A DNA stretch of 46,237 nt from Actinomycetota bacterium (GCA_009377815.1 WHTI01000011.1:1-46237), one strand, 5' to 3'. Counted from the stretch's first letter, positions 6,005-33,504 are shown. The notes: a model not told the origin generated them from the sequence alone. Numbers and translations: made by a program.

Positions 6005-7038
6005 AGTCCCCGCACCACAATCGCTGGCATCCAGCGATCGAGCCGGCTCTGAGGACCTCACCCGGCCGGGTCGTCACTCTTCATGTGCCGGATGGAGCTT
6101 CCGGTCAAGTAACTGCGGATGCGATCAGGGCGGGCAAGCGCGACATTGATCTCGATAAGGTCCATCCACTCGTTGGTCCGATCTACGTCGAAGGTGTTCG
6201 CCCCGGAGACGTTCTTGAGGTCGAGATACTGCGGATAGGCACCCACGACTTCGGATGGACGGGGATCTTTCCAATGTCCGGAGGGCTCCTCAGCGACATG
6301 GTTGAAGAATCCGTCTTAGCCGGTTGGGATCTCTCGACGACTGGTGCCCGAACGGAGCTTCTTCCGGGCATCGAGGTTCCTCGGAGACCGAACGTCGGCG
6401 TCGTCGGGGTCGCTCCATCGCTGGAGCTGCTCGACGTCATCGCAGAACGTGAAGATCGCTTGTCTAAGGAAGGCGGTTGGATCCAGCGCCCATCGCCTGG
6501 GGGCGCGTTACCGGATAGCGAACCGTCTGCAAGCAAGGGTTTGCGCACGCTTGCGGCCCGGGAGATCGGTGGCAATCTAGACATACCCGAGCTCGGGGAA
6601 GGTTGCACCGTGTTGCTTCCCGTGCACGTTGACGGCGCGCTGTTTTCTCTGGGGGACGTGCATTTCAGTCAGGGCGACGGTGAATGTTTCGGTACCGGGA
6701 TCGAAACATCGGCCGAGATAGACGTGCGATTCCACGTTCGCCAGGACCCGACCTGGAAGGCGCCCTTCCCCGCTCTGATCTCGAAGCGGAAGCTTCAAGC
6801 CAACGAGAGGATCACGACGACCGGCCTGTCACTCGACGCGTATCAAGACGTAGGGATCGCGTTAAGAGAAGCGGTGTCTTCGATGATCGAATACCTCAAG
6901 GCCGAACAGGGCCTGTCTCTCCTTCAGGCGCAGCTCCTCATCAGTGTCTGCGCGTCGCTCAGCGTGAGCGTGGTCAACAATCCGCCATCGCCTGTCGTGA
7001 CGGCGAGCTTGCCGCTGGAGCTGTTTCGCCCGTCCTAG
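6001..7038 (+). CDS. Acetamidase/formamidase family amidohydrolase
   Basis: A 345-residue protein that starts at GTG 6001, overlapping the upstream stop by four bases. Family hallmarks are the N-terminal RWHPAIEPALR, GPIYVEGVRPGDVLEVEIL, PNVGVVGVAP, and HVDGALFSLGDVHFSQGDGE, which contains the family's signature acidic residues. FmdA/AmdA enzymes hydrolyse short amides (formamide, acetamide) to the acid plus ammonia. In this setting it could release ammonia or formate from an amide intermediate. The C-terminal third (LSLLQAQLLISVCASLSVSVV) is the usual end region of the family. Its TAG stop shares the CTAG tetranucleotide at 7035-7038 with the convergent SDR gene. Confidence 0.9.
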   Translation: MKSPHHNRWHPAIEPALRTSPGRVVTLHVPDGASGQVTADAIRAGKRDIDLDKVHPLVGPIYVEGVRPGDVLEVEILRIGTHDFGWTGIFPMSGGLLSDMVEESVLAGWDLSTTGARTELLPGIEVPRRPNVGVVGVAPSLELLDVIAEREDRLSKEGGWIQRPSPGGALPDSEPSASKGLRTLAAREIGGNLDIPELGEGCTVLLPVHVDGALFSLGDVHFSQGDGECFGTGIETSAEIDVRFHVRQDPTWKAPFPALISKRKLQANERITTTGLSLDAYQDVGIALREAVSSMIEYLKAEQGLSLLQAQLLISVCASLSVSVVNNPPSPVVTASLPLELFRPS

Positions 7039-7859
7039 AGATCCCCGCCTCCGGCGGTCTGAACCAATCCCCTGATGGCGAAGCCGCTGTCACAGGAGAT
7101 GATCGACCCAGTGATGGCCCTCGATCTTTGCGCCGACGCGAGCAGGACGTAGGGCCAGGTGAGGTCTTCAGTTGTCGGCACCTCGCCGAGCGGGATGTAC
7201 TGCTCGACTCCCGGGATCACCGACGGGACGCCGGCGGCATGCTCCAGGGTGTCGAGGCCCGACATCGAGGTTGCGGCCACGCCGGGCGCGACCCCGTTCA
7301 CCCTCACCTTGGGCGCCAGCTCAAAAGCCAGCTGCTTGATCACGCCAGCGATAGCGTGTTTAGACGATACGTAGAGCACGCCTCCACCGCCGGGATGGAA
7401 GCTCGAGTACGACCCCGTGAGGATCACGGATCCACCCGATGCCAGGAGGGCGGGTAGTGCGGCCTTAACCCCGAGCAGATAGCCCAAGACGTTTACGTCG
7501 TAGAGCTCGCGGAAGGCCGTGGAGATGCGTTCCGGTGGGATCTTCGCAAGAGGTGTATTGCGATCACCGATAGCGGCGTTCCCGATGAACGTGTCGAGCT
7601 TCCCGAACCGCTCGACGACATTTTCGACGATCGCCACGTTGTCTTCCCATGAGGTGACTGTTCCCGCCACGGTCATTACCTTGTCGCCGTGGGCTTCTCG
7701 GATCACTCGGAGCGCATCCTCGGAGCGATCGAGGATACCGACGCGGGCTCCCTCGGCAACGAATGTCTCAACGATCGCAGCACCGATTCCCGCAGCTCCT
7801 CCGGTCACCACTGCGGTCTGGCCTTCGAGCCACCCGGTCGGAGCACTTTGGGCGTTCAT
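7035..7859 (-). CDS. SDR oxidoreductase, cis-dihydrodiol dehydrogenase (BphB-like) type
   Basis: A 274-residue classical short-chain dehydrogenase: TGGAAGIG at residues 19-26 binds NAD, N123 lies in YDVNVLGYLLG, and the catalytic set is S150, Y163 and K167 in VLYVSSKHAI. The middle region (KLDTFIGNAAIGDR, INVxGY-type core, LAFELAPKVRVNGVAPG) reads like the BphB/HcaB subgroup that oxidises arene cis-dihydrodiols to catechols. That makes it a natural partner for the ring-hydroxylating dioxygenase at 17.8-19.7 kb, although it lies 10 kb away. ATG 7859 overlaps the stop of the isochorismatase-family gene by four bases, so the two are co-translated. Another 2-hydroxy or 3-hydroxy substrate is possible. 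Confidence 0.85.
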   Translation of the reverse strand: MNAQSAPTGWLEGQTAVVTGGAAGIGAAIVETFVAEGARVGILDRSEDALRVIREAHGDKVMTVAGTVTSWEDNVAIVENVVERFGKLDTFIGNAAIGDRNTPLAKIPPERISTAFRELYDVNVLGYLLGVKAALPALLASGGSVILTGSYSSFHPGGGGVLYVSSKHAIAGVIKQLAFELAPKVRVNGVAPGVAATSMSGLDTLEHAAGVPSVIPGVEQYIPLGEVPTTEDLTWPYVLLASAQRSRAITGSIISCDSGFAIRGLVQTAGGGDL

Positions 7860-8578
7860 CCTGCCTCTCCGGAGGCCCGACGTTCGGCGAGCCCAGAGAG
7901 ATAATGCCGGGCATCCTCACTGTTGATCACATCTCCATACTTGAACGAGATGTCGGCAAGCGATGCTTTATGAGCGCTTTCTCCGCGATCGAAGACGGCA
8001 TCCTCGATGACCCCGACCTTGTAGTTGTAGGAGAAAGCGTCCACGACCGTGGCTCTGACGCAACCGCTCGTGGTTCCGCCGCAGATCAGCAGCGTGTCGA
8101 TCCCTGCGTTGACGAGCGTCGAGGGCAGGCCTGTTCCGAAGAAGCCACTGGGCGCCGTCTTCTCAAAGAGGACCTCTCCATCCAATGGGGCGATCTCTTT
8201 CACTATCTCTGCCGACTCGCGATCCCATTCGGATGTTCTCTCGTTCTTGTCGCTCCAGCGCCCGAGTGAGGGCGTGTTCGGGCCCTTCTTGAAGCTGCGG
8301 GTGTAGAACACCGGCGTACCGGTGATCCTGGCGGTGGCGAGGAGGATCTTGATCTTCTCGACCGCGTCCCAGCCATCCTCGCCGCACGCATTTGGCCATG
8401 CCCGTACCGCGTCGAGGATCGGTTTCCGGGTGTGGCCCACGAATTCATAAGTCACATCCACGACGAGGAGAGCAGGACGGACGCCCAACCCGGACAAGGA
8501 GCCATAGCCTGAAGCGGCGAAGACCTGCCGGTCGCGCGTTGTGAGGATGTCGTACCAACTCGGTTCTTGGCCGCTCAT
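7856..8578 (-). CDS. Isochorismatase-family cysteine hydrolase (N-carbamoylsarcosine/maleamate amidase-like)
   Basis: Seen from the upstream GTG at 8620, the triad of this family is present: Asp55 in LLVVDVTYEF, Lys154 in FEKTAPSGFFGT and Cys187 in GGTTSGCVRATV. The GGTTSGCVRATV nucleophile region fits the amidase branch (N-carbamoylsarcosine amidase, maleamate amidase, ureidoacrylate hydrolase) rather than true isochorismatases. These enzymes cleave an amide or carbamoyl group with release of ammonia. Start choice: ATG 8578 has AAGGTGG just upstream; GTG 8620 would add 14 residues. The gene is first in a two-gene unit with the SDR, overlapping it by ATGA. It fits removal of a ring nitrogen after ring opening, but the substrate is unproven. 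Confidence 0.86.
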   Translation of the reverse strand: MSGQEPSWYDILTTRDRQVFAASGYGSLSGLGVRPALLVVDVTYEFVGHTRKPILDAVRAWPNACGEDGWDAVEKIKILLATARITGTPVFYTRSFKKGPNTPSLGRWSDKNERTSEWDRESAEIVKEIAPLDGEVLFEKTAPSGFFGTGLPSTLVNAGIDTLLICGGTTSGCVRATVVDAFSYNYKVGVIEDAVFDRGESAHKASLADISFKYGDVINSEDARHYLSGLAERRASGEAG

Positions 8579-8763
8579 CTCCCACCTTCGGCCGGCGACG
8601 GTTTCGTGCCGAACATACACAAGTGGTTGTGAGATAGCTAGAGAGGCGGGTAAAGTTAGAGAAAGCCCTGGTCAATTGAGCGGATTACATATTTACTTTC
8701 CCCACGGGGTTGCCATACTCCGAGTGGGGAGTCTCGGCGGAGTGTCAGATAAGGGGAATAGAC

Positions 8764-11144: not shown

Positions 11145-12149
11145 GTGACTGACTCCAGCATCCGGCCTCCACTGATCAGCGCGGGGGTCTATCCCAGCTT
11201 CTCGTTCGCAGATCTGTATGAGCTTGCCGATCTGTTCGATGACTCCCGCATCGACACCCTCTGGGTCGGTGATTCTCATCTGATCTGGCGCGAGTGCTGG
11301 ACGACGATCACAGCTCTCGCCACGCGTACATCGTCTCTTCGGTTCGGTTCGTGTGTCAGCAACCCAATCAGTAGGCATGCTTCGGTAACGGCTTCGACGC
11401 TTGCAACGCTGCAGGAGCTGAGCGGCGGTCGGGTCCGGTTGGGCATAGGGGTGGGGGACTCGGCTCTGCGGATGACGTACGGCAGGGTGGCGAAACTCAA
11501 GGAACTGGAAACCGCGGTCGAGATGATCCGCGGCTTGCTGAGGGGTGAGGAATACGAGCACGACGGGAGCCCCCTAGCCCTAGCACGAGTGGCCCCAGGC
11601 ACGGAGATCTATGTCAGCGGAAGTGGCCCCAAGACCATGGCGATGGCGGGCAAGATCGGAGACGGAGCCATTGTCGTTCCGGGCTTGATCGCAGCCCGCG
11701 TCGAACAGGCCTTCGCTGCCGTTGCGACCGGCGCAGCCGAGTCGGGTCGCACGGAAGCGCCCCGGCGACTGCTGTGGATAGCGTTCGCTATGGATGTCGA
11801 CCGGAAGCGGGCGTTGGAAGCGGTGAGACCTTGGGTCGCCTCGGTTCTACGCCACCCTCTCCCGTTCGAGATCTCCGAAGAACTCAAGGAGATCAGGGCA
11901 GCGATCAGAGCGACCTACGACTTCACGCATCACATGGCTGGATCCGCAGGACACGCCTCAGCGGTCCCCGACCACATCGTCCAAGAGTTCGCGGTTGCCG
12001 GTGATCCCGACGAGGTCGGGGAGCTCATGGCCCGAGCGTGCGCTCTCGATGTCGATGAGGTTGCCTTCGTGTTGATGGGCGATGACCAGTTGGGCGCAGC
12101 CAGGTCCCTGGTATCTGCCCTGGCAACGTACGACGGGGTTCGCCCATGA
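11145..12149 (+). CDS. LLM-class flavin-dependent oxidoreductase
   Basis: A 334-residue luciferase-like TIM-barrel protein of the F420/FMN group: IDTLWVGDSHLIW near the N terminus, SNPISRHASVTASTLATLQELS and GGRVRLGIGVGDSALR, and ETAVEMIRGLLRGE. The family uses FMNH2 or F420H2 for monooxygenation or reduction, such as methylene-H4MPT reductase-like enzymes. It starts at GTG 11145 and opens a five-gene operon, overlapping the next gene by ATGA (12146-12149). A second, clearly related LLM enzyme lies at 16362-17393, convergent with the end of the same operon; both share WxGDSxxIWRE and a GD-rich loop. This pairing suggests related substrates. Cofactor choice cannot be decided by eye. Confidence 0.9.
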   Translation: MTDSSIRPPLISAGVYPSFSFADLYELADLFDDSRIDTLWVGDSHLIWRECWTTITALATRTSSLRFGSCVSNPISRHASVTASTLATLQELSGGRVRLGIGVGDSALRMTYGRVAKLKELETAVEMIRGLLRGEEYEHDGSPLALARVAPGTEIYVSGSGPKTMAMAGKIGDGAIVVPGLIAARVEQAFAAVATGAAESGRTEAPRRLLWIAFAMDVDRKRALEAVRPWVASVLRHPLPFEISEELKEIRAAIRATYDFTHHMAGSAGHASAVPDHIVQEFAVAGDPDEVGELMARACALDVDEVAFVLMGDDQLGAARSLVSALATYDGVRP

Positions 12150-13303
12150 CCGGCGGGCGCAGTGTTCTGATCGCCGACTGCACGCTTCGTGAAGGTGAAC
12201 AGCAGCCGGGCATCGTGCTCGATAGCGAAGCGAAGGTTCGGATCGGGGAACGCCTGGCCGACCTGGGGATCGTCAGAGCGGAGATCGGAACCCCTGCCGT
12301 TTCCGAGGGAGAACGCGCCGCGGTTGCTGCAGTCGTCAGGTCTGGGGCGATCGCCGAGACGGTGGTCGTCTGCCGGGCGAAGAAAGAGGACGTCGAGCTT
12401 GCTGCCGAGTGTGGCGTCTGGGGGGTCGTCGTCAGCAGTCCCGTCAGCCCATTCCAACTCGAGCACAAGCTCCATATGACGATCGAGCAGGTGATCGAGC
12501 GCGTCCTGGAAGTACACGAGCACGCGCGTACTTTGGGGCTCAAGACGTTCGCCAGCGCATACGACAGCTTCAGAACTCCCGAGGAGTCCCTGCGCCAGAT
12601 CTATGAGGCATTGGGAGATGCGGGCATGGTTGATGGTGTTCGGCTGGTCGATACCGTCGGCGTTGCGACGCCGGAGCGAGCGGCGGCTCTGGTCGCGTAC
12701 CTGGCCTCATTCGTCACGGTGCCGATCGAAGTTCACTTCCACGACGACTTTGGACTCGCGATGGCTAACGCAGTCGCATCGGTTGCCGCCGGGGCCGAGG
12801 TGTCGTCTTCGATAGCAGGCGTCGGGGAGCGCGCCGGAAACGTCGCGACCGAAGAGATCGCGGCGGCACTGCACTTCCGCCTGGGACTGGATACCGGTCT
12901 CCATATGAGTCGATTGGCCCCCGTGTGCCGGGATATCACGCGGGAGCTTGGCCTATCTGTGTCGCCAAACAAGGCTGTTTTCGGCCGCAACGCGTTCAGG
13001 CACGTCGCCGGTCTCACGGTCGGGGGCTTCCTCCACGATCCTCTGGTTGCGCAGCCCCTTCACGCCGAGGAACTGGGAGCTACCTCCGAGATCGCTCTCG
13101 GAAAGGTCTCCGGCAAGGACGCACTCGAGTTCGCCCTCAGACGGATCGGGATCGATCCCGCGGCCCTCGACCACGGCGCACTACTGGATGAAGTGAAGCG
13201 TACCTCGGAGGAGACTCGCAGGCTGGTGTCGGATTCCGAGCTGATCCGGATCGTTCGAAGGATGTCATCGGACCAAGGAGACAAGGAGAACCAGGATGCC
13301 TGA
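12146..13303 (+). CDS. Homocitrate/2-isopropylmalate synthase-like (HMGL-like) enzyme
   Basis: A 385-residue DRE-TIM metallolyase. DCTLREGEQQPGIVLDSEAK at residues 10-29 carries the metal-binding Asp and catalytic Arg, HFHDDFGLAMANAVA the metal-binding HxH, and GVGERAGNVATEE the family signature. The C-terminal subdomain (SPNKAVFGRNAFRHVAG, LGKVSGKDALEFAL) is that of NifV/homocitrate and citramalate-type synthases, without the long regulatory domain of LeuA. These enzymes condense acetyl-CoA or similar with a 2-oxo acid. In a catabolic operon with RidA, an enamidase homologue and aldehyde dehydrogenase, such a synthase is unexpected and may use a pathway-specific 2-oxo acid or run as an aldolase. 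It overlaps the upstream gene by 4 bases and the downstream gene by 8. Confidence 0.88.
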   Translation: MTGGRSVLIADCTLREGEQQPGIVLDSEAKVRIGERLADLGIVRAEIGTPAVSEGERAAVAAVVRSGAIAETVVVCRAKKEDVELAAECGVWGVVVSSPVSPFQLEHKLHMTIEQVIERVLEVHEHARTLGLKTFASAYDSFRTPEESLRQIYEALGDAGMVDGVRLVDTVGVATPERAAALVAYLASFVTVPIEVHFHDDFGLAMANAVASVAAGAEVSSSIAGVGERAGNVATEEIAAALHFRLGLDTGLHMSRLAPVCRDITRELGLSVSPNKAVFGRNAFRHVAGLTVGGFLHDPLVAQPLHAEELGATSEIALGKVSGKDALEFALRRIGIDPAALDHGALLDEVKRTSEETRRLVSDSELIRIVRRMSSDQGDKENQDA

Positions 13304-13694
13304 AGCGCGCGTCAAGAGGTTCAACGGAAACGGACTTGCGGCCCCAAAGGTTCCGTTGTCACATGGAGCTCTCGTTGATGGATGGTTGCACGTCGCAGGG
13401 ATGGTGGCTCGAGACAAGTCAGGACAGATCGTGGACGACGACGCCAAGCAAGCAACGATCATCTGCCTCGAGAACCTGATGGATGTTGTCTCCACGGCAG
13501 GTGGAACCAAGTCCGACGTGGTCAAGGTCAATGTCTACCTGAAGGATTTCGGTGACTATCCGGCGATGAACGCCGCTTTCGAAGAGTTCTTCGGGGGTGA
13601 CTACCCGACGAGGACGACCATCGAGTCGGGACTCGGACTCGGAGATGTCGAACTGGATGGGGTTGCCTTTATCGCCGACCCCGTCGTGCCGTGA
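13296..13694 (+). CDS. RidA (YjgF/YER057c/UK114) family protein, enamine/imine deaminase-like
   Basis: A 132-residue protein with the RidA pattern: KVPLSHGALVDGWLHVAGMV at the N terminus, a central helix, VVKVNVYLKDFGDYPAMNAAF, and YPTRTTIESGLGL, which contains the conserved arginine that binds the carboxylate of the substrate in active members. RidA hydrolyses reactive enamines/imines such as 2-aminoacrylate to 2-oxo acids and ammonia, as a trimer. The position directly before an enamidase-like gene (4-base overlap at 13691-13694) suggests a pathway-specific deaminase that handles an enamine released by ring opening. Its start, ATG 13296, lies inside the end of the synthase gene with AAGGAGA just upstream. 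Confidence 0.9.
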   Translation: MPEARVKRFNGNGLAAPKVPLSHGALVDGWLHVAGMVARDKSGQIVDDDAKQATIICLENLMDVVSTAGGTKSDVVKVNVYLKDFGDYPAMNAAFEEFFGGDYPTRTTIESGLGLGDVELDGVAFIADPVVP

Positions 13695-14863
13695 AACGGC
13701 CCGATCGGCTAGCCGTCACTCACGTCCGGCGGATCATTACCGGCGATCTCGATCACCCGGTCGCCGAGGGCAATGATGTCCTGATCGAGAACGGTGTCTT
13801 CAGCGAGATCGGATCTGAAGTGACGGACGCCGATGCGATCCTGGACGCAAAAGGTCTGGATCTGTGGCCGGGTCTGGTCGACTCCCATGTACATCCGATC
13901 GTTGGTGACGTAAGCGTGATGCCACACGGCTCCGGATGGGTCGGGGAGTACATGAACGGGGGCGTTACCCGCATGATCTCTGCGGGGGAGTTAACCATGC
14001 CGGGCCTGACGGACCCTTTGACCCCAGAGATGGTCGTCGACCTCGCGTGCGTCACAGCCAAGCTCTATCGTGGCACCGCGATGGGGCCCAAGATCCACGC
14101 GGGCACCCTGTTGCTCGTCCCTGGCCTCCAGCGGTCCGACTTCGAGCGGATAGCGAAGGCCGGCGGCGTTTGCGTCAAGTACATCTACTACCCGTTCGCC
14201 AACCCGGATCGTCAAGAACTCGACAACTACAGAGCCTGGGCCCACGGTGCCGGACTCAAGGTCAAACTTCACTGCGGTGGCACCTCGTACAGAGGAGGAA
14301 GCGTCACGGCAGACAGGGCGGTCTTCGAAGCGTCGGTGCCGGACATAGCCGGTCACCTGAACGGGGGGCCGATCCCGGTGACAGACGAGGATGCTCGGTT
14401 CATCGTGGAGTCCGGCGCTGCATTCGAGATCATCATGGGCGGCAATCTGCGCCTTGCGAGAGACATGGTCGCATGGGCGGACGCCGCAGGTCTGCTCGGG
14501 AGCCTCCTCTGCGGAACCGACACTCCCGGCGGAAGTGGAATCACACCGCGCGCTATGTTGCAACTGGTCGCGTTTCTTTCCGGGACCTGCAAGCTGCCCC
14601 CCTCGGTAGCCGTTGCGGCCGCGTCGGGAAATGTCACGAGGGCTCACGGCATCGAAGGAGGAACCATCGCGATCGGGCGCCCTGCCGACTTCCTGCTGGT
14701 TGGTGCCGTCAGAGGTTCCGGCGCCGCCACAGCGGAGGCATCCGTTGCGAGCGGTGAGATCCCAGGGATCGGAGCCGTTGTGATCAATGGTGAAGTCAGG
14801 GCGATCCCGGGGCGGCTCACCCCTCCGCCGGACGAGCTCCCGCAGATGACGGAAGTGAGGTAG
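13691..14863 (+). CDS. Enamidase-like amidohydrolase (copy 1)
   Basis: A 390-residue amidohydrolase-superfamily enzyme starting at GTG 13691, overlapping RidA by GTGA. The metal site is visible as GLVDSHVHP (HxH), KVKLHCGGTS, GHLNGGP and CGTDTPGGSGITPR (the terminal Asp). The layout from IITGDL through GVTRMISAGE, HLNGGPI, GTDTPGG and GEIPGIGAVVINGE follows enamidase of the Eubacterium barkeri nicotinate pathway, which hydrolyses 6-oxo-tetrahydronicotinate to 2-formylglutarate and ammonia (from family memory, not a search). It would therefore open a cyclic enamide. Copy 2 lies at 20322-21512. Adjacent RidA and aldehyde dehydrogenase genes fit removal of ammonia and oxidation of the aldehyde product. 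Confidence 0.83.
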   Translation: MKRPDRLAVTHVRRIITGDLDHPVAEGNDVLIENGVFSEIGSEVTDADAILDAKGLDLWPGLVDSHVHPIVGDVSVMPHGSGWVGEYMNGGVTRMISAGELTMPGLTDPLTPEMVVDLACVTAKLYRGTAMGPKIHAGTLLLVPGLQRSDFERIAKAGGVCVKYIYYPFANPDRQELDNYRAWAHGAGLKVKLHCGGTSYRGGSVTADRAVFEASVPDIAGHLNGGPIPVTDEDARFIVESGAAFEIIMGGNLRLARDMVAWADAAGLLGSLLCGTDTPGGSGITPRAMLQLVAFLSGTCKLPPSVAVAAASGNVTRAHGIEGGTIAIGRPADFLLVGAVRGSGAATAEASVASGEIPGIGAVVINGEVRAIPGRLTPPPDELPQMTEVR

Positions 14864-14865
14864 CT

Positions 14866-16365
14866 ATGTCCGTCCCATCGAGCGTTGCCCAAAGAGATGA
14901 CCACGTTAGATCGTGGGAAACGGTCACCGGAGGTCTCTCTCAATTCATCGGAGGAGAGTTCGTCGATGGAACGTCGGCCGACAGTGTCCCAGTGGTCGAT
15001 CCGTCGTCCGGCGATGTCATCGCATCTCTGAAGGGGGCCGGTCCTGGGGACGTTAGCGCGGCCATCGATGCCGCCGAACGGGCTCAGCCTGCGTGGAACA
15101 ACCTGGGCTTCTACGAGCGAGCGATGAGGATGCTGCGGCTCGCCGACGCCATCGAGGAGCGCCGCTCGGAACTTGCGGGACTAGACGCTGTCGATAGCGG
15201 GAATCCGGTTATCGCTATGGAGGACGACGTCCTTCTCGGACTGCGGCAGCTTCGCCAGATGGCCGGTATGGGGCTGGCCATCCGGGGTGAAACGTTTCCG
15301 ATGGAAGGCGGGGGGTTGCACTACACAAGCGTCGAGCCCTTTGGTGTTGTCGCCCGGATCGTGCCGTTCAACCACCCATCATTGTTCGCCATCACGAAGA
15401 TCGCTGCCCCCTTGATCGGCGGCAACACTGTTGTGATGAAACCAGCGGAGCAAACGTCGCTGACCAATCTATTCCTGGGCGAACTCTTCGCCGAGTACCT
15501 GCCCGAAGGTGTTGTGAACGTCGTTACCGGGGGAGCGCAGACGGGTGCGACGCTGATCGCGGATGAGAGGGTGAAGCGGATCGCGTTCATGGGCAGTGTT
15601 GAGACCGGGATGCGCATCCAGAGCGCAGCGGCACAGGTCGGTATCAAGTACGTAACCCTCGAGCTCGGCGGCAAGAATCCGATGATCGTGTTCCCAGATG
15701 CAGACGTGAGCGCCGCCTCCGTCGGTTGTGTCACCGGCATGAACCTGACGACGTGCCAGGGGCAGTCGTGCGGATCGAACTCTCGGATATTCGTGCACGA
15801 CGACATCTATGACGAATTCATGGACGGCCTGGTCGCGGAGCTCAAGGGCATCCGCTTGGGCGTGGCGTACAGCCGCGACACAGACATGGGCCCGGTGATC
15901 GATCGACGTCAGCTCGATCGGATCGCCGACTTCGTTAGCCATGGGCGCGACAGCGCAAGGATCGTTTACGAGGCCCCGGTGTCGGGCGATCTGCCCCAGG
16001 GCGGCTACTTCTCGGCTCCGACTGTCATCGACCAGATCGCCCCTAACGACAGACTGGCGGTGGACGAGATCTTCGGGCCGGTGATCTCGGTTTTCCGCTG
16101 GAAGGATGTTGAGGGAGTCGTTGCGGCGGCTAACGATGTCAGATATGGGCTGACCGCGAGCGTGTGGTCGAAGGATATCGACAGGGCGACCTCGATGGCC
16201 TCCCGACTTCAAGCCGGGTACGTGTGGATCAACGAGCACGGCCGCCACTACATAGGGACGCCATTCGGTGGCTACAAGGCCAGCGGGATCGGCGAGGAGG
16301 AGTCGTTCTCGGAGATCGAAAGCTTCCTACAACGCAAGTCCGTTCATATCCGTGTGAAGCCCTAG
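14866..16365 (+). CDS. NAD(P)-dependent aldehyde dehydrogenase
   Basis: A 499-residue member of the ALDH superfamily. Asn169 is in VPFNHPS, the general base Glu266 in VTLELGGKNP, and the nucleophile Cys302 in QGQSCGSNSR, with the C-terminal HYIGTPFGGYKASGIGEEES. All residues needed for catalysis are present. It is most like betaine-aldehyde/semialdehyde dehydrogenases that oxidise short amino- or carboxy-aldehydes. The ATG (14866) follows the enamidase stop by two bases, so it very probably oxidises the aldehyde produced in that operon (a formyl- or semialdehyde dicarboxylate), an inference from context. It is the last gene of the 11145-16365 operon, and its stop shares CTAG with the convergent LLM gene. 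Confidence 0.93.
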   Translation: MSVPSSVAQRDDHVRSWETVTGGLSQFIGGEFVDGTSADSVPVVDPSSGDVIASLKGAGPGDVSAAIDAAERAQPAWNNLGFYERAMRMLRLADAIEERRSELAGLDAVDSGNPVIAMEDDVLLGLRQLRQMAGMGLAIRGETFPMEGGGLHYTSVEPFGVVARIVPFNHPSLFAITKIAAPLIGGNTVVMKPAEQTSLTNLFLGELFAEYLPEGVVNVVTGGAQTGATLIADERVKRIAFMGSVETGMRIQSAAAQVGIKYVTLELGGKNPMIVFPDADVSAASVGCVTGMNLTTCQGQSCGSNSRIFVHDDIYDEFMDGLVAELKGIRLGVAYSRDTDMGPVIDRRQLDRIADFVSHGRDSARIVYEAPVSGDLPQGGYFSAPTVIDQIAPNDRLAVDEIFGPVISVFRWKDVEGVVAAANDVRYGLTASVWSKDIDRATSMASRLQAGYVWINEHGRHYIGTPFGGYKASGIGEEESFSEIESFLQRKSVHIRVKP

Positions 16366-17393
16366 GAGGTTGCCGAACCGGCAACCTCCGCATCGAAGAT
16401 ATGGGCGAAGGTTCGGATCGTTGCTGCTCTATCCCCTCCCGGTTCGGTGAACGGCACGATCGAGACCTGGTGAATCCCGCTTCCGGCCAGGTCCTTCAGC
16501 CTCTCGGTGCATTCATCTGCCGTGCCCGACAGCGAGAACATGTCCACCAAACGGTCGGGGACGAGGTCGGCATGATTAGCCGAGACATCCATGTGGTGGT
16601 AGTAGTCATATGTCTTCCGGATGTTCTCGATGTCTTCCATCAGTTCGGGCGCAAGCTCGAACGGCAACGGGCGGATCACGGCCCTCGCGACATGGGCCCT
16701 AACGAGGTCCCTGGCTGCCTTCCCATCGGCATCGATCGCGGTCGGCGTCCACAGCACGAGGTGGATGTCGTCCATGCTCCGCCCTGCTTCGGCAGCGCCT
16801 TCAGCTACCTTCTCGATCGCTGCCTGGATAAGCCCGGAGTGGGTGCCCACCAGAAGGATCACTCCGTCGGCGATCTTCCCCGCGAGCTTCAGGATCTTCG
16901 GCGCAGAGCATGCGATGTAGACGGGAACCTTCTGGGGAGAAGGCAGATATGCGAGCCGGTAGTCGAGGTCCGAGGTTGCTTCGGACACAGGTTCACCCCT
17001 GAATAGGGTCCGGAGGTCGGCGACCGTTGCCTCGAGATCTTTGAGTCTCATCGGTTTGAGACCCATCGTCCGGAGCGACGAGTCGCCAGTGCCGATCCCT
17101 AGGGCAGCTCGTCCTCCGGTCATCTCGGACAAGGTCGCCCACACGGATGCCAGAACCGAAGGATGCCGTGTGATCGCGTTCGTCACCCCCGTACCGAGGA
17201 TGACGTTCTCTGTGGCCTGGGCTACCGCCCCCATAGTGATGTAGACCTCGCGCCAGATGTTCTGGGAGTCCCCGAACCAGACATGTGAGTAGCCGAGCTC
17301 CTCGGCGAGAACGGAGAGTTCGACGATGCGCTTCACGGGTTCGATCGGGAAGAGCCCCACCGCACGAGTGAGACCCCTCTCCTCCGGACTCAT
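16362..17393 (-). CDS. LLM-class flavin-dependent oxidoreductase (paralogue of the 11145 gene)
   Basis: A 343-residue luciferase-like TIM-barrel protein. It shows ELGYSHVWFGDSQNIWRE, TNAITRHPSVLASVWATLSE, GGRAALGIGTGDSSLRTMG and DLEATVADLRTLFRGEPV, closely parallel to the LLM enzyme at 11145-12149, plus VPVYIACSAPKILKLAGK, common in F420-dependent 5,10-methylene-H4MPT-reductase-like proteins. The reaction is unknown. It is co-translated with the small gene upstream (ATGA overlap, 17390-17393). This unit is divergent from the ring-hydroxylating dioxygenase operon, so it may be co-regulated with it. Its stop codon shares CTAG 16362-16365 with the aldehyde dehydrogenase gene. Confidence 0.9.
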   Translation of the reverse strand: MSPEERGLTRAVGLFPIEPVKRIVELSVLAEELGYSHVWFGDSQNIWREVYITMGAVAQATENVILGTGVTNAITRHPSVLASVWATLSEMTGGRAALGIGTGDSSLRTMGLKPMRLKDLEATVADLRTLFRGEPVSEATSDLDYRLAYLPSPQKVPVYIACSAPKILKLAGKIADGVILLVGTHSGLIQAAIEKVAEGAAEAGRSMDDIHLVLWTPTAIDADGKAARDLVRAHVARAVIRPLPFELAPELMEDIENIRKTYDYYHHMDVSANHADLVPDRLVDMFSLSGTADECTERLKDLAGSGIHQVSIVPFTEPGGDRAATIRTFAHIFDAEVAGSATS

Positions 17394-17617
17394 AGCGGTC
17401 CGAACGGGGTCTCGAGGAACTTGGAGAACGTCTCGGGGGGCTGCCAGGAGATGCTCTCGAGCTCGAGGGAGTCGAGGAGGATCATGTGCCCGAGCCGAGG
17501 AGCTTCGATCATCAGCCGCTCCCCATTCCGCGTGTGGACCTTGGTGATCCTCACGGTAGCGAATTCGTTCGACACGGTGAACGGTTCACCGGCCTCTTCG
17601 AGATACTCGTCCTCCAC
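17390..17617 (-). CDS. Small conserved-looking protein of unknown function (dioxygenase-associated)
   Basis: About 75 residues from GTG 17617, which has AAGGGAG eight to nine bases upstream; a GTG at 17656 would add 13 residues. The core reads EPFTVSNEFATVRITKVHTR, then a LGHMILLDSLELESISWQ strand-rich middle and FSKFLETPFGPL at the end. No cysteines, membrane segment or known motif. From memory, similar short proteins are often found beside actinobacterial ring-hydroxylating dioxygenase genes and carry the doubtful label 'dihydrodiol dehydrogenase'; it is far too short to be one. It overlaps the LLM oxidoreductase start by four bases, so the two are made together. It could be an accessory or scaffold subunit. 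Confidence 0.7.
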   Translation of the reverse strand: MEDEYLEEAGEPFTVSNEFATVRITKVHTRNGERLMIEAPRLGHMILLDSLELESISWQPPETFSKFLETPFGPL

Positions 17618-17644
17618 GGAGACACACTCCCTTTCCAAAGGCAA

Positions 17645-17654
17645 GTTACGTAAC
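17645..17654. promoter_or_regulatory. Palindrome GTTACGTAAC, candidate operator
   Basis: A perfect 10-bp palindrome 28 bases upstream of the GTG (17617) of the small minus-strand gene. It has the same GTTA-N2-TAAC form as the sites at 5525-5534 and 17750-17759. The three sites all lie in promoter gaps, which suggests one shared regulator. It would overlap the start of the small gene only if the longer GTG 17656 start were used. Confidence 0.45.
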
Positions 17655-17708
17655 ACCTGACAAGATAGCCAACCCGGGTCTACCTTTCTAGCCCCTAGCT
17701 ATATCCCC

Positions 17709-17738
17709 TTGACCCACGGTCATGTCTACGCCTACTCT
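17709..17738 (+). promoter_or_regulatory. Candidate sigma70-type promoter for the dioxygenase operon
   Basis: TTGACC (17709-17714) and TACTCT (17733-17738) are separated by 18 bases, a fair match to -35 and TANNNT -10 boxes, 38 bases before the TTG start at 17776. The palindrome AGTTAAGTAACT immediately downstream would lie at about the transcription start, where a repressor would block RNA polymerase. This was assigned by eye only. Confidence 0.35.
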
Positions 17739-17748
17739 GCAGTCTGGG

Positions 17749-17760
17749 AGTTAAGTAACT
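17749..17760. promoter_or_regulatory. Inverted repeat AGTTA-AG-TAACT, candidate operator
   Basis: Two 5-base arms with a 2-base centre, 16 bases before the TTG start of the dioxygenase beta subunit and just downstream of the candidate -10 box. It matches the AGTTA-N2-TAACT core within the large inverted repeat at 5516-5553. This position is typical of a repressor site controlling the dioxygenase genes. Confidence 0.45.
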
Positions 17761-17775
17761 AGGGGGATTGCTAGC

Positions 17776-18282
17776 TTGATTACCAGAGACCTGCGCGACG
17801 ACCTGACGTCGGCGCTGTTCCACGAGGCCGAGCTTCTGGACGACGGCAAGGTGAAGGAATGGTTCGAGGGGCTCCTCACGAAGGAGATCGACTACCGGAT
17901 CCCCGTTCGGATCACGCGCGAACGGCTGAGCGGCCGCGGCTTCAGTGAGCATGCCTGGTTGATGAAGGAGAACTGGCACTCGTTGAGGCAGCGGGTCATG
18001 CGTCTCGACAGCGAGTATGCGTGGGCGGAGGATCCGGCCTCGAGGATCCGACACTTCGTGACCAACATCCGCCTCGAGGAGGGTGAGGGATCCGATCGGG
18101 TGACGGTGAAGTCGAACGTCCTTCTCTTCTGGAGCAGGCTCGATTCGACGGACTTCAAGCTTGTGTCGGGCGAACGCCACGACGAATGGGTCCGCGAGGA
18201 CGACACGTGGAAACTGGACGCTCGCACCGTGTACCTCGATCACACGACGCTGGTCACCCCGAACCTAGCCATCTTCATCTGA
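17776..18282 (+). CDS. Aromatic-ring-hydroxylating dioxygenase, beta subunit
   Basis: A 168-residue protein of the beta-subunit family (NTF2-like fold): AELLDDGKVKEWFEGLLTKE and IDYRIPVRITR at the N terminus, RHFVTNIRLEEGEGSDRVTV in the centre and WKLDARTVYLDHTTL near the end. The beta subunit has no metal site; it forms the alpha3beta3 hexamer and helps shape substrate fit. It starts at TTG 17776 behind AGGGGGA. The gene precedes alpha, the reverse of the common alpha-beta order but known in actinobacterial and benzoate-type clusters. The alpha gene follows after 11 bases with its own GGAGG site. No ferredoxin or reductase gene is seen beside it. Confidence 0.9.
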   Translation: MITRDLRDDLTSALFHEAELLDDGKVKEWFEGLLTKEIDYRIPVRITRERLSGRGFSEHAWLMKENWHSLRQRVMRLDSEYAWAEDPASRIRHFVTNIRLEEGEGSDRVTVKSNVLLFWSRLDSTDFKLVSGERHDEWVREDDTWKLDARTVYLDHTTLVTPNLAIFI

Positions 18283-18293
18283 ACGGAGGCCCG

Positions 18294-19661
18294 ATGAACC
18301 CTGAGGTGATCACGCTGCCCGAGTCGGTTAGGCGCATCCTCGATCAAGCGCAGGAATCGATCCCTCAGGGCCTCTTGCCGATCTCCGTCTTCAACGACCC
18401 GGACCTCCACAAGGTCGAGATGGAGCGGATCTTCGGTCATAACTGGGTGTTCATCGGACACGAGTCCGAGATCCCTCACCGCGGTGACTACGTCCTTCGG
18501 TACATCGGCGAGGACGCGTTCATCTTCATCAGGGATGAGAAGGGCCAGATCAGGGTCATGTGGGATAGCTGCCGTCACCGAGGCTCACAGATCTGCCGGG
18601 CCGAGAGCGGTAACGCATCCCACTTCCGCTGCCCGTACCACGGCTGGACCTACAAGAACACCGGCGAGTTGGTGGGTATGCCTGCTTACAAGGAGGCCTA
18701 CGGTGGATGGGATCGCTCACAGATCCGACTTCACGAGCCTGCTCAGGTCGACAGCCTCTACGGGTTGGTGTTCGCCTGCCTGGATCCGCTCACCCCGCCG
18801 CTGGACGAGTTCCTTGGGGGAGCGAAATGGTACATGGACTTCTATCACGGCCTCGGAGAGATGGAGGTGGTCGGGGAGCCGCATCGTTGGTCGGTTGATG
18901 CCAACTGGAAACTCGGCTGCGAGAACTTCGCCGGGGACGAGCATCACACGCTCTTCCTCCACCGGTCGATGTGGGAGGTCGGCGCCATCCAGGTGCCTCG
19001 TGACCGGATGTCCGACGGCTATCACGTCCAGATCGGAAACGGGCACACGATCGACATGGGGATGGGCCCCGACCCTGATGAATCCGGCATCGAGTACATG
19101 GATTACCCGAAGGAGATCACCGAGAAGTTCAAGACGGGACATCTCTCCAAAGACCAGCTTGCGCTCGCGCGGCAATCGGTCATCCACGTCGGGATCGTCG
19201 CTCCCAACTTCGCGCAGCTCCATCTTCCTCTGACGTCCGATGCCGAGAACATCCCGCCGATCCCCGTAAAGACGCTGCGCGTCTTCCAGCCCAAGGGACC
19301 GAACGAGATGGAGGTCTGGAGCTGGTGCGTCGTGTGGAAGGGCGTATCGGAGGAGTTCAAGGAACTGTCCCATCGGGTGCTCATGTCAACCTTCAGCCCC
19401 TCTGGGATCTTCGAGCAAGACGACGTCGTTCCGTGGCTCAGCATCACCAAGGCGGCGGGCAGCGGTTTCGCTCGCCTCAAGCAACCGCTCCTCAACTACC
19501 AGATGGGCATGGAAGGCGTTGGCGTGTCGAAGCCCGTCCCAGATTGGGCGGGACCGGGCACCGCTTACTCCCCTCGGTTCGAGGAAGGTAACCAGCGGTC
19601 CTTCTGGTCGAAATGGCTCAGGGACATGCTGGTCGAGCCGAGCAAAGTCTCTACCCCTTAG
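18294..19661 (+). CDS. Aromatic-ring-hydroxylating dioxygenase, alpha (Rieske) subunit
   Basis: A 455-residue alpha subunit. The Rieske [2Fe-2S] ligands are Cys93/His95 in DSCRHRGSQIC and Cys113/His116 in RCPYHGWTY. The bridging Asp215 and iron ligands His218 and His223 lie in ENFAGDEHHTLFLH, and the third ligand probably lies in GIFEQDD. The usual GDxYH has His in place of Tyr here, with all ligands kept. The enzyme adds O2 to an arene to give a cis-dihydrodiol, with electrons from a ferredoxin/reductase that must be encoded elsewhere. Pairing with the BphB-like SDR at 7035 is suggested. Substrate type (biphenyl, phenylpropionate, benzoate or a heteroarene) cannot be decided. Confidence 0.94.
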   Translation: MNPEVITLPESVRRILDQAQESIPQGLLPISVFNDPDLHKVEMERIFGHNWVFIGHESEIPHRGDYVLRYIGEDAFIFIRDEKGQIRVMWDSCRHRGSQICRAESGNASHFRCPYHGWTYKNTGELVGMPAYKEAYGGWDRSQIRLHEPAQVDSLYGLVFACLDPLTPPLDEFLGGAKWYMDFYHGLGEMEVVGEPHRWSVDANWKLGCENFAGDEHHTLFLHRSMWEVGAIQVPRDRMSDGYHVQIGNGHTIDMGMGPDPDESGIEYMDYPKEITEKFKTGHLSKDQLALARQSVIHVGIVAPNFAQLHLPLTSDAENIPPIPVKTLRVFQPKGPNEMEVWSWCVVWKGVSEEFKELSHRVLMSTFSPSGIFEQDDVVPWLSITKAAGSGFARLKQPLLNYQMGMEGVGVSKPVPDWAGPGTAYSPRFEEGNQRSFWSKWLRDMLVEPSKVSTP

Positions 19662-19672
19662 GAGCGGACCCC

Positions 19673-20262
19673 TTGGAGATCGTTAACTCGTTCACTGTCC
19701 CTGCGTCCATAGGCGAGGCCTGGGACCTGTTCCTCGACGTCGACCGGATCGTGGTGTGCATGCCGGGGGCGGAACTCGTGGAGAAGCTTCCCAACGACGC
19801 CTTCCTCGGGAAGGTGAGCGTGAAGTTGGGTCCCATCGCGATGTCGTTCAAGGGCGAGGCCAGGTTCGTGGGGGTCGATGAGGCAGCGCGTGTTGTACGT
19901 CTGCACGCGAAGGGGAAGGAGCTCAAGGGTCGGGGTTCCGCCGAGGCGACGGTGACCACAAGGATGCGGGAAGAGGAGGGTGGGACGTCGGTGGAGGTAA
20001 CCGCCGATCTTCAACTGTCCGGTTCGGTAGCCCAGTTCGGGAGAGGGGTCATCGGAGACGTTTCGTCAAAACTGGTGGATCAGTTCGCCGGCTGTCTGGC
20101 GGCAACTCTGGGAGGCACGGAGGCCGAGCGGAGTCTGCGGTGGCAGCAAGCACGGCTCCCGTGTCCGGACTCAAGCTGATGCTTGCAGGCATCGTGGGCG
20201 CTCTCAAGAGGCTCTTCCGCCGGTCTCCAACGCCGAACGATCCAGCCGGATCGGCTTCGTAG
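19673..20262 (+). pseudogene. CoxG-like SRPBCC protein, frameshifted near its 3' end
   Basis: TTG 19673, eight bases after AGGAG, starts an SRPBCC/CoxG-type protein: FTVPASIGEAWDLFLDVDRI, CMPGAELVEK, KVSVKLGPIAMSFKGEARF, KGKELKGRGSAEATVT and ADLQLSGSVAQFGRGVIGDV. In its own frame it stops at 20179 after an unlike tail. The typical CoxG C terminus is present in the -1 frame: a linker (ESAVAASTAPVSG) and then the amphipathic LKLMLAGIVGALKRLFRR, ending at 20262. One base is therefore missing between about 20117 and 20131. CoxG proteins serve CO-dehydrogenase-type molybdenum hydroxylases, the tail serving membrane/quinone contact. This copy sits in the dioxygenase operon, 6 kb from the CoxMSL-like genes. 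If the shift is real the product is soluble and tail-less. Confidence 0.82.
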
Positions 20263-20321
20263 CAAACCCAGAGTCTCGAACGGTCGGATGAGCCGAGACG
20301 TCCGAGGATTCGCGTACCAAC

Positions 20322-21512
20322 TCATCGACCCCCGTCCCCCGGACCCACGATCGACGCAAGCCTGTTTGGTGGGGGCGTTTGTTCGCTCCGACCCCTGATC
20401 ACGGGTTTCCCGTCCACCAACACCATGCTGATCCCGGGCAGGTCCCCGAGTGCGAAGCAATCGAGAGCATCGGTAGCCCGGGACCCTTGGATGGGGCCCA
20501 GCAGGACGATGTCGGCTCTAGCTCCGACGGCGAGAGAGCCTCCCTCGATCCGGTGAGCGCGTGCCGTGTTGAATGTGGCTGCCGAGACCGAAGCCTCCGG
20601 ACTCAAGTCGCAGATCGAGGACAGAAAGCACATGTTGCGCAGCATCCCTCGGGGGATCACCCCGGTGCCCCCAGGCGTATCCGTTCCCAGGGTGAGTTGG
20701 TCGAGTCTGCCGATATCGGTCAGATGCTCGACGACGATCTTGGTCGCCCGGTAGTTCATCGAGCTGCACACTTCGATACCTGCTTCGGGAAGGTCATCGA
20801 TCGAACGGATGATCTCTTCGTCTGGCATCGGTATCGGGCCACCGGAGACATGAGCGACGACATCCGGACCAACGGCCGCCATCACATCGTGCCCGGCGAC
20901 CCGGCTAGACCCCGAGCGCGACACTCCACCCGAGTGGATCTTCACCACTAGGTTGCGTTCCCGAGCCCAGCGGACATAGGTCTGCGCCTCGGACCAGTCT
21001 GCCTTCCCCCAGTCGAAGAATATGAACTTAAGGTGCTGTAGGCTGATCTCTACCATCTCGTCGAAATGGCTCTCCTTCATACCCGGGACGAGCAGCACGG
21101 TTCCGCAGTGCATCTGGGCACCACCGGGTTCGACGCGACCGGTTGTCTCACGAGACACTCGAGCGAGGGCGATCACCAACTCCGGTGTTAGATCCTCAAA
21201 GGGCAGGCCGGGCACATGCAGTTCTGCAGCCGACACCATCTGGGTGGTGCCCCCGTGAAGGTAGTTCCGGGACCAACCGATGGTGTTCTGGGCCGGGGTC
21301 CAGTCACCGAACGTTGGGTGCACGTGGCCGTCGATCAGGCCGGGGATCGCGGTCAGACCGTTCGCGTCGATCACCATGTCGGGCGTGGAAAGGTCTCCTC
21401 CGATCCCTGTGACGACCCCATCCTCGATACAGATAGTCGTGTCGCGCGACGTCCCTACGGAAGGGTCTCCCGGAACGACCAGACCTACATTCGTGACAAG
21501 GACGGAGGACAT
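20322..21512 (-). CDS. Enamidase-like amidohydrolase (copy 2)
   Basis: About 396 residues (two more from GTG 21518; ATG 21512 has AGGTG close upstream). The metal-site landmarks are GLIDGHVHPTFGD, NLVVKIHSGGVS, AHVSGGPIPMPDEE and LGTDTPGGTGVIPRGMLRNM. The C-terminal DLPGISMVLVDGKPV and TPPPNR match the end of Eubacterium barkeri enamidase very well by memory, better than copy 1. The predicted role is hydrolysis of a cyclic enamide or enamine ring with loss of ammonia. It stands alone on the minus strand, convergent with the CoxG-like gene and divergent from the importer operon, so both sides of the 21519-21856 gap may be controlled together. Two copies imply two ring-opening substrates or stereo-specific steps. 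Confidence 0.85.
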   Translation of the reverse strand: MSSVLVTNVGLVVPGDPSVGTSRDTTICIEDGVVTGIGGDLSTPDMVIDANGLTAIPGLIDGHVHPTFGDWTPAQNTIGWSRNYLHGGTTQMVSAAELHVPGLPFEDLTPELVIALARVSRETTGRVEPGGAQMHCGTVLLVPGMKESHFDEMVEISLQHLKFIFFDWGKADWSEAQTYVRWARERNLVVKIHSGGVSRSGSSRVAGHDVMAAVGPDVVAHVSGGPIPMPDEEIIRSIDDLPEAGIEVCSSMNYRATKIVVEHLTDIGRLDQLTLGTDTPGGTGVIPRGMLRNMCFLSSICDLSPEASVSAATFNTARAHRIEGGSLAVGARADIVLLGPIQGSRATDALDCFALGDLPGISMVLVDGKPVIRGRSEQTPPPNRLASIVGPGDGGR

Positions 21513-21518
21513 GATCAC

Positions 21519-25514: not shown

Positions 25515-26608
25515 AGCACTCGAATTCACCCTTGCTTAGTTGGATAGGTCGTCGGGTGTGGCCGCTCGTCGCTTTGATCGTGCCCCTCGGAGCGATCGCT
25601 CTTTTCGGAGGAACCGGCTCGATCGTCTTCCAGCGTGAAGTGACCACGATGATGATGTACATGGTGGTTGTCGTCGGTTACTACATCTTCGTCGGCAACT
25701 CCGGAGTAACATCCTTCGGGCACATCAGTTTCATGATCATCGGCGCGTACACGGCCGCCCTGTTGACGCTCACCGTCCAGCAGAAGATCATCCTGCTGCC
25801 CGACCTTCCCTCGTTCTTGGCGGACGTCCACTTCGGTTTCGTCGGCGGCGCGCTCTTGGGGGCGGTGGTTGCGGCAGTCTTCGCCGCGGTGATCGCGCTG
25901 CCGATCAATCGTTTGACGGGGATCTCCTTGTCGCTGGCGATGTTTGCGATCCTTCTGACCGTCAACGTGATCGTCAGTCACTGGACATCGGTGACTCGCG
26001 GAGTCACGTCTATGTTCGGGGTTCCTCAATCGACAACCCTGGGGTCTGCGTTCGTGTTTGCAAGTATCACTATCGTGGCGGCCTGGATGTTTCAGTGGAC
26101 GCGGGTCGGTTTGAGGATGAGAGCGGCACGAGAGGATGAGCCGGCGGCTCGAGCCGTTGGCATCAGCATCCCTCGTGACCGCGCTATCGCCTTCATCCTC
26201 AGTGGTTTCTTCGTGGGTCTGGGCGGAGCGCTCTTCGCACAGTTCCTTGGGGCGTTCAACTCCGACACGTTCTATATCTCGACCACACTTCTCACGATAG
26301 CGATGCTCGTCATCGGGGGGTTCAAGAGTCTTTCCGGAGCAGTGGTGGGGACGGTTTTCGTCTCCGCTCTCGATGCGGGTCTCCGCAGGATGGAGGATGG
26401 GTTTGCACTAGGGCCGCTCGAAGTCGGCTCTCGTCCCGGTCTATCCGCCGTTGGGCTCGCTCTCTGCATGCTGCTGGTGTTGGTCTTCCGCTCTGAGGGT
26501 TTAACCGGCTCCCGCGAGATCCCCTCGCTGTGGCGGCTTCGGCGAAACGAAACCCCGCCGGCGGACACGCTGCCAGCACCTGCAACCGATCGAAAGGATG
26601 TTTCATGA
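25511..26608 (+). CDS. Branched-chain-type ABC importer, permease (LivM-like)
   Basis: A 365-residue membrane permease with ~8-10 hydrophobic spans. Landmarks are YYIFVGNSGVTSFGHISFM (the LivM G.SLGH motif), the coupling loop RMRAAREDEPAARAVGI, SGFFVGLGGALFAQFLGAF and LVIGGFKSLSGAVVG. The last ~30 residues are a polar, Arg/Pro-rich cytoplasmic tail. It completes the five-part importer. Its stop overlaps the start of the molybdenum hydroxylase FAD subunit (ATGA, 26605-26608), directly coupling uptake to the first catabolic enzyme. Confidence 0.92.
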   Translation: MKHSNSPLLSWIGRRVWPLVALIVPLGAIALFGGTGSIVFQREVTTMMMYMVVVVGYYIFVGNSGVTSFGHISFMIIGAYTAALLTLTVQQKIILLPDLPSFLADVHFGFVGGALLGAVVAAVFAAVIALPINRLTGISLSLAMFAILLTVNVIVSHWTSVTRGVTSMFGVPQSTTLGSAFVFASITIVAAWMFQWTRVGLRMRAAREDEPAARAVGISIPRDRAIAFILSGFFVGLGGALFAQFLGAFNSDTFYISTTLLTIAMLVIGGFKSLSGAVVGTVFVSALDAGLRRMEDGFALGPLEVGSRPGLSAVGLALCMLLVLVFRSEGLTGSREIPSLWRLRRNETPPADTLPAPATDRKDVS

Positions 26609-27477
26609 AGCCCGCGCGCTTCGAGTACCTCGCCCCGACATCTGTCGAGGAGGCGGTGTCCCTCCTGGTCGAAGGGGGTGAGGACGCGAAGCTGCTTGCG
26701 GGGGGCCAGAGCCTCGTTCCGCTGATGAACCTTCGCCTCGCCCAGCCTAGTGTCCTTATCGACCTGAACAAGGTCGAAGGAATCTCGTCGATCACCGAGT
26801 CCGAGGATGCGGTGGTCATCGGATCGATGGCGCGACACCGGGCCGTTGCGGAATCGGAGGTGGTGCGGAGATTTCTACCGCTGCTGGCCGAGTCCGCGGG
26901 GCACATCGGCTACCCGGCGATCCGTGCTCGGGGAACCATCGGAGGAAGCATCGCTCACGCGGATCCTGTATCCGAGTTCCCTTGCGCGTGCCTCTGCCTC
27001 CACGCCGAGTTCGTCCTCACCGGCCCCGCAGGGACGAGGCAGGTCAGGGCAGAAGATTTCTTCGTCTCATATCTAACAACCGCGCTTAGCCCCGACGAGA
27101 TCCTCACAGAGGTGCGTTTCCCCAAGCCCTCTCCCGGTCTCGGGTGGGGATTCCTTGAACTGGCGAGAAAGACAGGTGACTTCGCGCTGGCGGCGGTCGC
27201 CGCCACGGTCGCGTTGTCGCCCGATGGCACCTGTTCTGAGGCCTCCATCGCGGTCGCCGGAGGCGGCGATAGGCCCCTACGGATGGTCGAGGCGGAGACG
27301 ATGCTGAAGGGAAACCAGGGTGACGACGTCATCGCCCGGGCGGCGACGGCGGCTGCGACCTCGTCGAATCCTCCTTCGGACATCCATTCAAGCGGTGACT
27401 TCCGACGACAGATGATCGAGGTTCTGACCAGACGAGTGCTCACGGCGGCGTGGGGCAACGCACGGAGGGGTGAATGA
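26605..27477 (+). CDS. Molybdenum hydroxylase, FAD-binding medium subunit (CoxM/CutM-like)
   Basis: A 290-residue subunit of the xanthine-oxidase family. The FAD site shows AKLLAGGQSLVPLMNLRLA near residue 33 and the AxxGTIGGSIAHADP motif (RARGTIGGSIAHADP) near 110; the C-terminal CO-dehydrogenase flavoprotein domain follows. It passes electrons from the [2Fe-2S] small subunit to the final acceptor. The ATG at 26605 overlaps the importer permease, and the frame's earlier open stretch is not used because it lies inside that gene. It overlaps the small subunit gene by ATGA (27474-27477). The M-S-L gene order is that of CoxMSL operons. Confidence 0.93.
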   Translation: MKPARFEYLAPTSVEEAVSLLVEGGEDAKLLAGGQSLVPLMNLRLAQPSVLIDLNKVEGISSITESEDAVVIGSMARHRAVAESEVVRRFLPLLAESAGHIGYPAIRARGTIGGSIAHADPVSEFPCACLCLHAEFVLTGPAGTRQVRAEDFFVSYLTTALSPDEILTEVRFPKPSPGLGWGFLELARKTGDFALAAVAATVALSPDGTCSEASIAVAGGGDRPLRMVEAETMLKGNQGDDVIARAATAAATSSNPPSDIHSSGDFRRQMIEVLTRRVLTAAWGNARRGE

Positions 27478-33488: not shown

Positions 33489-33504
33489 GCGTCAACGGAG
33501 GATC

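Follow-up and report, generated by a model that had tools for sequence, protein, structure and literature searches.

What do two enamidase-like amidohydrolases do in a genome that lacks 6-hydroxynicotinate reductase? The question is raised by a 46,237-nucleotide stretch of DNA from an Actinomycetota bacterium (GCA_009377815.1, WHTI01000011.1:1-46237; the window, hereafter, is this whole stretch), which encodes copy 1 (13,691–14,863, + strand; 390 amino acids) and copy 2 (20,322–21,518, − strand; about 396 amino acids). Here we report that both copies belong to a separate clade of the enamidase family in which active-site residues have changed. The recurrent partner of this clade and of its basal relatives is one subfamily of luciferase-like oxidoreductases (LLMs), not RidA or aldehyde dehydrogenase (ALDH), the partners singled out by a first-pass annotation of the window; this pairing is a new finding.

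The enamidase-like identity of the two proteins, proposed in that annotation, is borne out. In a phmmer search of all PDB sequences, Eubacterium barkeri enamidase (EC 3.5.2.18; 2VUN) is the single match at E ≤ 1e-5 (E 1e-59 for copy 1 and 2.6e-71 for copy 2). The AlphaFold2 model of copy 1 (predicted local distance difference test (pLDDT) score 89.8) matches 2VUN with a template modelling (TM) score of 0.91, the next amidohydrolases listed reaching 0.68 or less (query-normalised). Enamidase is the nearest relative of the copies, in fold and in sequence, within the amidohydrolase superfamily. Imidazolonepropionase and dihydroorotase, named earlier as the competing placements, are disfavoured because PDB match and model favour enamidase and the NCBIfam scores speak against both: the copies score 28.6 and 40.6 bits against the imidazolonepropionase model TIGR01224 (cut-off 298) and below 30 bits, far under the cut-offs, against the dihydroorotase models. 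Length and the GGP and SxxGxS segments are also shared with the E. barkeri enzyme, to which the window copies are about one-third identical. Two of the motifs first read as enamidase landmarks fare less well. The C-terminal DIPGI/EIPGI does not extend to copy 2, which ends in DLPGI, and GTDTPGG is typical of the copies' own clade, whereas enamidase has GNDAPSG at this point.

About 160 family members were collected from plasmids, contigs and complete genome sets. Trees place the copies within the enamidase family but not with enamidase itself, so that the original assignment holds for the family and fails for the clade linked to 6-hydroxynicotinate reductase. That clade (clade A) unites E. barkeri enamidase with proteins from numerous aerobic Proteobacteria and from some Actinomycetota. 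Clade C, which is separate (Shimodaira–Hasegawa-like approximate likelihood ratio test (SH-aLRT) support 97–99.9), comprises, besides copies 1 and 2, the L085 protein, six from Alphaproteobacteria and two from Chloroflexota; copy 2 is 53% identical to the L184 protein and 49% identical to that of L085. Moving the window copies from clade C into clade A, or into a third group, clade B (for example, Thermomicrobium roseum plasmid, Mesorhizobium, Agrobacterium vitis), is rejected by approximately unbiased (AU) tests (P = 4e-9 and 1e-10, respectively). Copy 1 is a long branch, and its exact position inside clade C is therefore unsure.

The active sites are consistent with this separation. The first-pass annotation had tied the assignment to retention of the enamidase metal ligands, and most of them are retained: each of the eight clade C members tested has HxH, the β5 and β6 histidines and the β8 aspartate (HxH, H194, H222 and D277 in copy 1). 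The β4 position is not. Glu164 of enamidase, which from knowledge of the superfamily we take to be the bridging ligand in 2VUN, is Glu in 17/17 clade A members, Lys in 16/16 clade B members and replaced in 8/8 clade C members. In the amidohydrolase superfamily the β4 bridge can be Glu or a carboxylated Lys. All eight clade C members carry a Lys one residue before the Glu164 position, a placement open to a register shift of one or two residues in the alignment; in copy 1 this residue, K163, lies inside strand β4 of the model. Two arginines, Arg78 (of PRQ) and Arg107 (of PGRP), are present in 16/17 clade A and 16/16 clade B members and in 0/8 of clade C. They are probably substrate contacts, which would bind the substrate carboxylate.

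Could the copies nevertheless be true enamidases, hydrolysing 6-oxo-1,4,5,6-tetrahydronicotinate (THON) to 2-formylglutarate while unlinked or unrecognised genes supply the remaining nicotinate steps? The closest solved structure is enamidase, and an XDH-family trio (FAD, 2Fe-2S and molybdopterin subunits; 26,530–30,325, + strand, from gene order and translations) lies about 5 kb from copy 2. Yet Glu164, Arg78 and Arg107, each conserved in at least 16 of the 17 clade A proteins, are changed in all eight clade C members, and the AU tests reject leaving that clade. Moreover, 6-hydroxynicotinate reductase was not found in the window genome (96.6% complete) in searches whose controls match at E 1e-191, and the same holds for AA_synth, for which control genomes match strongly; beside the window copies there is no 6-hydroxynicotinate reductase, UPF0280 or AA_synth. 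The observation that the enamidase-like genes occur without the nicotinate reductase genes stands, and we consider a true enamidase function very unlikely.

The neighbourhoods of the clades differ in the same genes. Within about 9 kb of clade A genes (27 non-redundant loci), 6-hydroxynicotinate reductase is found at 16/27, AA_synth at 20/27 and UPF0280 at 17/27; the reductase adjoins clade A enamidases in Sulfitobacter, Bradyrhizobium, Roseobacter, Comamonadaceae and Actinomycetota. At the 20 clade B loci, AA_synth occurs at 16 and the reductase at none. Clade B resembles the window in the missing reductase, in the β4 Lys and in Rieske dioxygenase genes at some loci; it differs in that both arginines and AA_synth are kept and there is no LLM pairing. 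XDH-family genes flank the clade C copies at L085, L184, L185, L186 and L187. As a separate observation, AA_synth (DUF1185) and UPF0280 constantly adjoin enamidase-family genes (for example L111, L130, L131, L132, L109 and L106), and in much of clade B AA_synth lies directly upstream of the enamidase-family gene. RidA was considered as a structural stand-in for AA_synth and rejected: the structures matched by an AA_synth model (pLDDT 88.7) are only those of DUF1185, 3byq and 2qtp, with no RidA fold among them.

These neighbourhoods also bear on oxygen. Enamidase had been treated in the first-pass annotation as an anaerobic enzyme and the window as an aerobic variant of its strategy. Neither view is supported: the THON route for nicotinate is in use in Azorhizobium caulinodans and in Bradyrhizobiaceae SG-6C (PMC3511419, PMC9304392), the former named as aerobic in PMC3511419, and reductase-linked clade A enamidases are already common in aerobes. 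Aerobic use as a novelty is ruled out by this literature together with the clade A neighbourhoods. The window shares with the aerobic THON route (PMC3511419) an XDH-type hydroxylase and the enamidase logic; that route uses 6-hydroxynicotinate reductase, joined by UPF0280 and AA_synth at the loci analysed here, and all three are missing beside the window copies.

How the genes came to be in this genome is suggested by their distribution. A search of 24 genomes found the enamidase-like family nowhere else in the class, and it is present in 14/397 genomes of the phylum, so the genes look acquired. By composition both copies reside in the genome's own DNA: the tetranucleotide correlation of the contig with the other contigs of the window genome (G000) is 0.979, which makes a misbinned contig unlikely.

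Copy 1 is the fourth gene of a five-gene operon on the + strand, in which every gene overlaps or abuts the next and which begins upstream of the RidA/copy 1 pair. The first gene encodes LLM1 (11,145–12,149; Mer/TIGR03842-like; PF00296, 174 bits; nearest PDB relative 1z69, E 9e-27) and overlaps by 4 nt a DRE-TIM acyltransferase gene (12,146–13,303; homocitrate/isopropylmalate synthase-like, PF00682 and HCS_D2; nearest homocitrate synthase 6ktq, E 5e-50), whose product reaches none of the NCBIfam equivalog cut-offs. RidA follows (13,296–13,694; PF01042); it shares 8 nt with the DRE-TIM gene and 4 nt (GTGA) with copy 1, which starts at GTG. The stop of copy 1 is separated by 2 nt from the ATG of the ALDH gene (14,866–16,365; PF00171, 464 bits), whose product attains no NCBIfam equivalog cut-off. 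The coupling first described for RidA, copy 1 and ALDH is therefore seen as stated. The RidA protein is 39% identical to Escherichia coli RutC and keeps the Arg of PxR; it scores 71 of 169 bits against the RutC equivalog TIGR03610, though RutC is its nearest PDB sequence (3v4d, E 4e-18).

Convergent to the operon lies LLM2 (16,362–17,393, − strand; nearest PDB relative Mer, 8qq8/1z69, E 4e-41), which belongs to the subfamily of the LLMs found beside enamidase-like genes in Chloroflexota. At L187 and L188, both from Chloroflexota, an LLM gene is the immediate same-strand neighbour of the enamidase-like gene, and at L188 the two form a lone pair amid RNA-repair and other unrelated genes. The pairing is also found at L227 (truncated at a contig end) and L226, a Chloroflexota locus where the window's combination of LLM, RidA and enamidase-like genes recurs. 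In a tree that includes the LLM sets of G000 (16), G841 (14) and G954 (8), a few very short fragments being omitted, the LLMs of L187, L188 and L227 are sister to LLM2 (SH-aLRT 96). LLM1 and an LLM from the plasmid of Variovorax PBL-E5 join at the next level (95) and the L226 LLM one level further up (98). Counted by hand, and with lineages that are not fully independent, the pairing occurs at 5/12 clade C or basal loci and at 0/45 others (Fisher P = 2e-4). An LLM neighbour at L079 was discounted, as it belongs to a different LLM subfamily and its genome encodes 65 LLMs. A side observation at L188 is that a Hen1/Pnkp RNA-repair pair adjoins the lone cassette (12,758–16,736).

The linkage also bears on whether the arrangement means anything. 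The copies might be ordinary expanded paralogues of broad-specificity amidohydrolases, their neighbours gathered by chance in a xenobiotic-degradation island; many unrelated catabolic genes in the window fit this, as does a family missing from the other genomes of the class and so apparently acquired. The overlapping gene starts of the operon and the repeated LLM pairing argue in the opposite direction, and we regard a chance gathering as unlikely.

What cofactor might the LLMs use? The nearest PDB relative of both LLM1 and LLM2 is the F420-dependent methylene-tetrahydromethanopterin reductase Mer, and the Variovorax plasmid LLM of the same clade sits among npdG, cofGHDCE, RidA and a hydantoinase-like amidohydrolase gene (L231, 6,429–16,988). 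Taken together, the PDB relatives and this gene cluster point to F420 as a candidate cofactor. Neither LLM reaches the family cut-offs, the best scores being those of LLM2 (202 of 295 bits for TIGR03842 and 195 of 276 for PRK02271). At 16 bits, the amidohydrolase of the Variovorax cluster was rejected as not enamidase-like. The plasmid carries a complete F420 biosynthesis set with the LLM, RidA, amidohydrolase and carbon-nitrogen hydrolase genes. Literature searches on F420 with RidA and amidohydrolase, and on SAR202 with amidohydrolase, found nothing useful.

An F420-type LLM would separate the window from an oxidative route of the Rut or trigonelline kind, in which the LLM would be an FMN/O2 monooxygenase cleaving or hydroxylating the ring, the amidohydrolase would cut the released amide, and RidA and ALDH would take RutC- and RutE-like steps. 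RutA and TgnA are LLMs, the window RidA is RutC-like, an isochorismatase-family gene (the RutB family) lies at 7,856–8,620, and Rieske dioxygenase genes are adjacent. Like the Rut pyrimidine pathway (RutA an LLM, RutB an isochorismatase, RutC a RidA), the window segment combines an LLM with an amide hydrolase and a RutC-like RidA. The LLMs, however, score near Mer and TIGR03842 with F420 enzymes as their best PDB matches, and RutA falls outside the LLM1/LLM2 clade. The hydrolase belongs to the enamidase family, and an ALDH stands in place of the RutE reductase. On balance we consider the oxidative route rather unlikely.

We favour, at somewhat less than even confidence, a reading in which copies 1 and 2 represent a distinct enamidase-like subfamily that most likely acts on cyclic (en)amides different from 6-oxo-tetrahydronicotinate and opens their ring, and in which the operon is a short catabolic segment of a non-nicotinate N-heterocycle route. 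The XDH-family trio may make a lactam by hydroxylation; the LLM, with F420 as its presumed cofactor, would prepare the heteroaromatic lactam by reduction, giving a cyclic enamide; hydrolysis of the cyclic (en)amide by copy 1 or 2 would open the ring; and the RutC-like RidA would hydrolyse the enamine or imine, yielding ammonia and an aldehyde, which ALDH would oxidise. The scheme is modelled on the nicotinate route, where XDH-type hydroxylation and ring reduction come before enamidase. Homology, clade membership, residues, gene coupling and recurrent linkage are what the analysis shows; the cofactor, the substrate, the order and every reaction are inferred from them. Fold by itself is no sure guide to the reaction, as KpiC, a protein 28% identical to enamidase, is reported to be a 3,4-dihydroxypyridine dioxygenase (PMC7356986). 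By that precedent the copies could be amidohydrolase-fold oxygenases that split a dihydroxypyridine oxidatively, which we hold to be highly improbable as their hydrolase metal ligands are complete.

Several points weigh against the reading that we favour. The alphaproteobacterial clade C loci L085, L180, L182, L184 and L185 have no such LLM nearby, and the LLM is therefore not obligatory. RidA and ALDH beside an intact clade C copy are seen in the window genome only. At L226 (3,718–8,061; Chloroflexota; enamidase-like, LLM, short LLM, RidA, second enamidase-like), the second, RidA-coupled enamidase-like protein lacks the HxH and Asp ligands, which have been lost, and may serve as a partner without catalytic activity; the basal placement of L226 relative to clade C is itself unsure. 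Both the F420 cofactor of the LLMs and the substrate of copies 1 and 2 are ones that we infer. Finally, the scheme offers no clear role for the DRE-TIM gene.

The rest of the window is catabolic in part. Between LLM2 and copy 2 lie, on the + strand, the β (17,776–18,282; PRK10069, 146.9 bits, cut-off 145) and α (18,294–19,661; PF00355 and PF00848; start uncertain) subunits of a ring-hydroxylating Rieske dioxygenase, which has no firm place in the scheme, and a CoxG-like SRPBCC protein (19,640–20,179; PF06240; start uncertain). Past copy 2 follow a branched-chain-type ATP-binding cassette transporter, the XDH-family trio and HyuA/HyuB genes; after HyuA and a further HyuB-like gene come two neighbouring, closely similar HyuB genes (33,424–37,001). 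Upstream, at 6,001–8,620, acetamidase/formamidase and isochorismatase-family genes might provide further amide hydrolysis steps.

A broader proposal, which we consider doubtful, is that an F420H2-dependent LLM has replaced the ferredoxin-linked 6-hydroxynicotinate reductase. Rings would then be opened reductively by a modular route (molybdo-hydroxylase, F420 ring reductase, enamidase-like protein, RidA and ALDH) spread across Actinomycetota and Chloroflexota. The F420-dependent LLM hydride transferase that reduces picrate (PMC8498797) sets a precedent for an LLM-fold enzyme that reduces an aromatic ring with F420H2; for the window LLMs, F420 use is presumed. A single enamidase is represented here by a solved structure, and most members of the large wider family are uncharacterised. 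Within it, the window reveals a subfamily with a different β4 metal position, without the two usual arginines and with a recurrent LLM partner. The LLM and enamidase-like pair is a small testable unit for N-heterocycle breakdown and, if the LLM is indeed F420-dependent, would extend ring-reducing F420 use beyond picrate.

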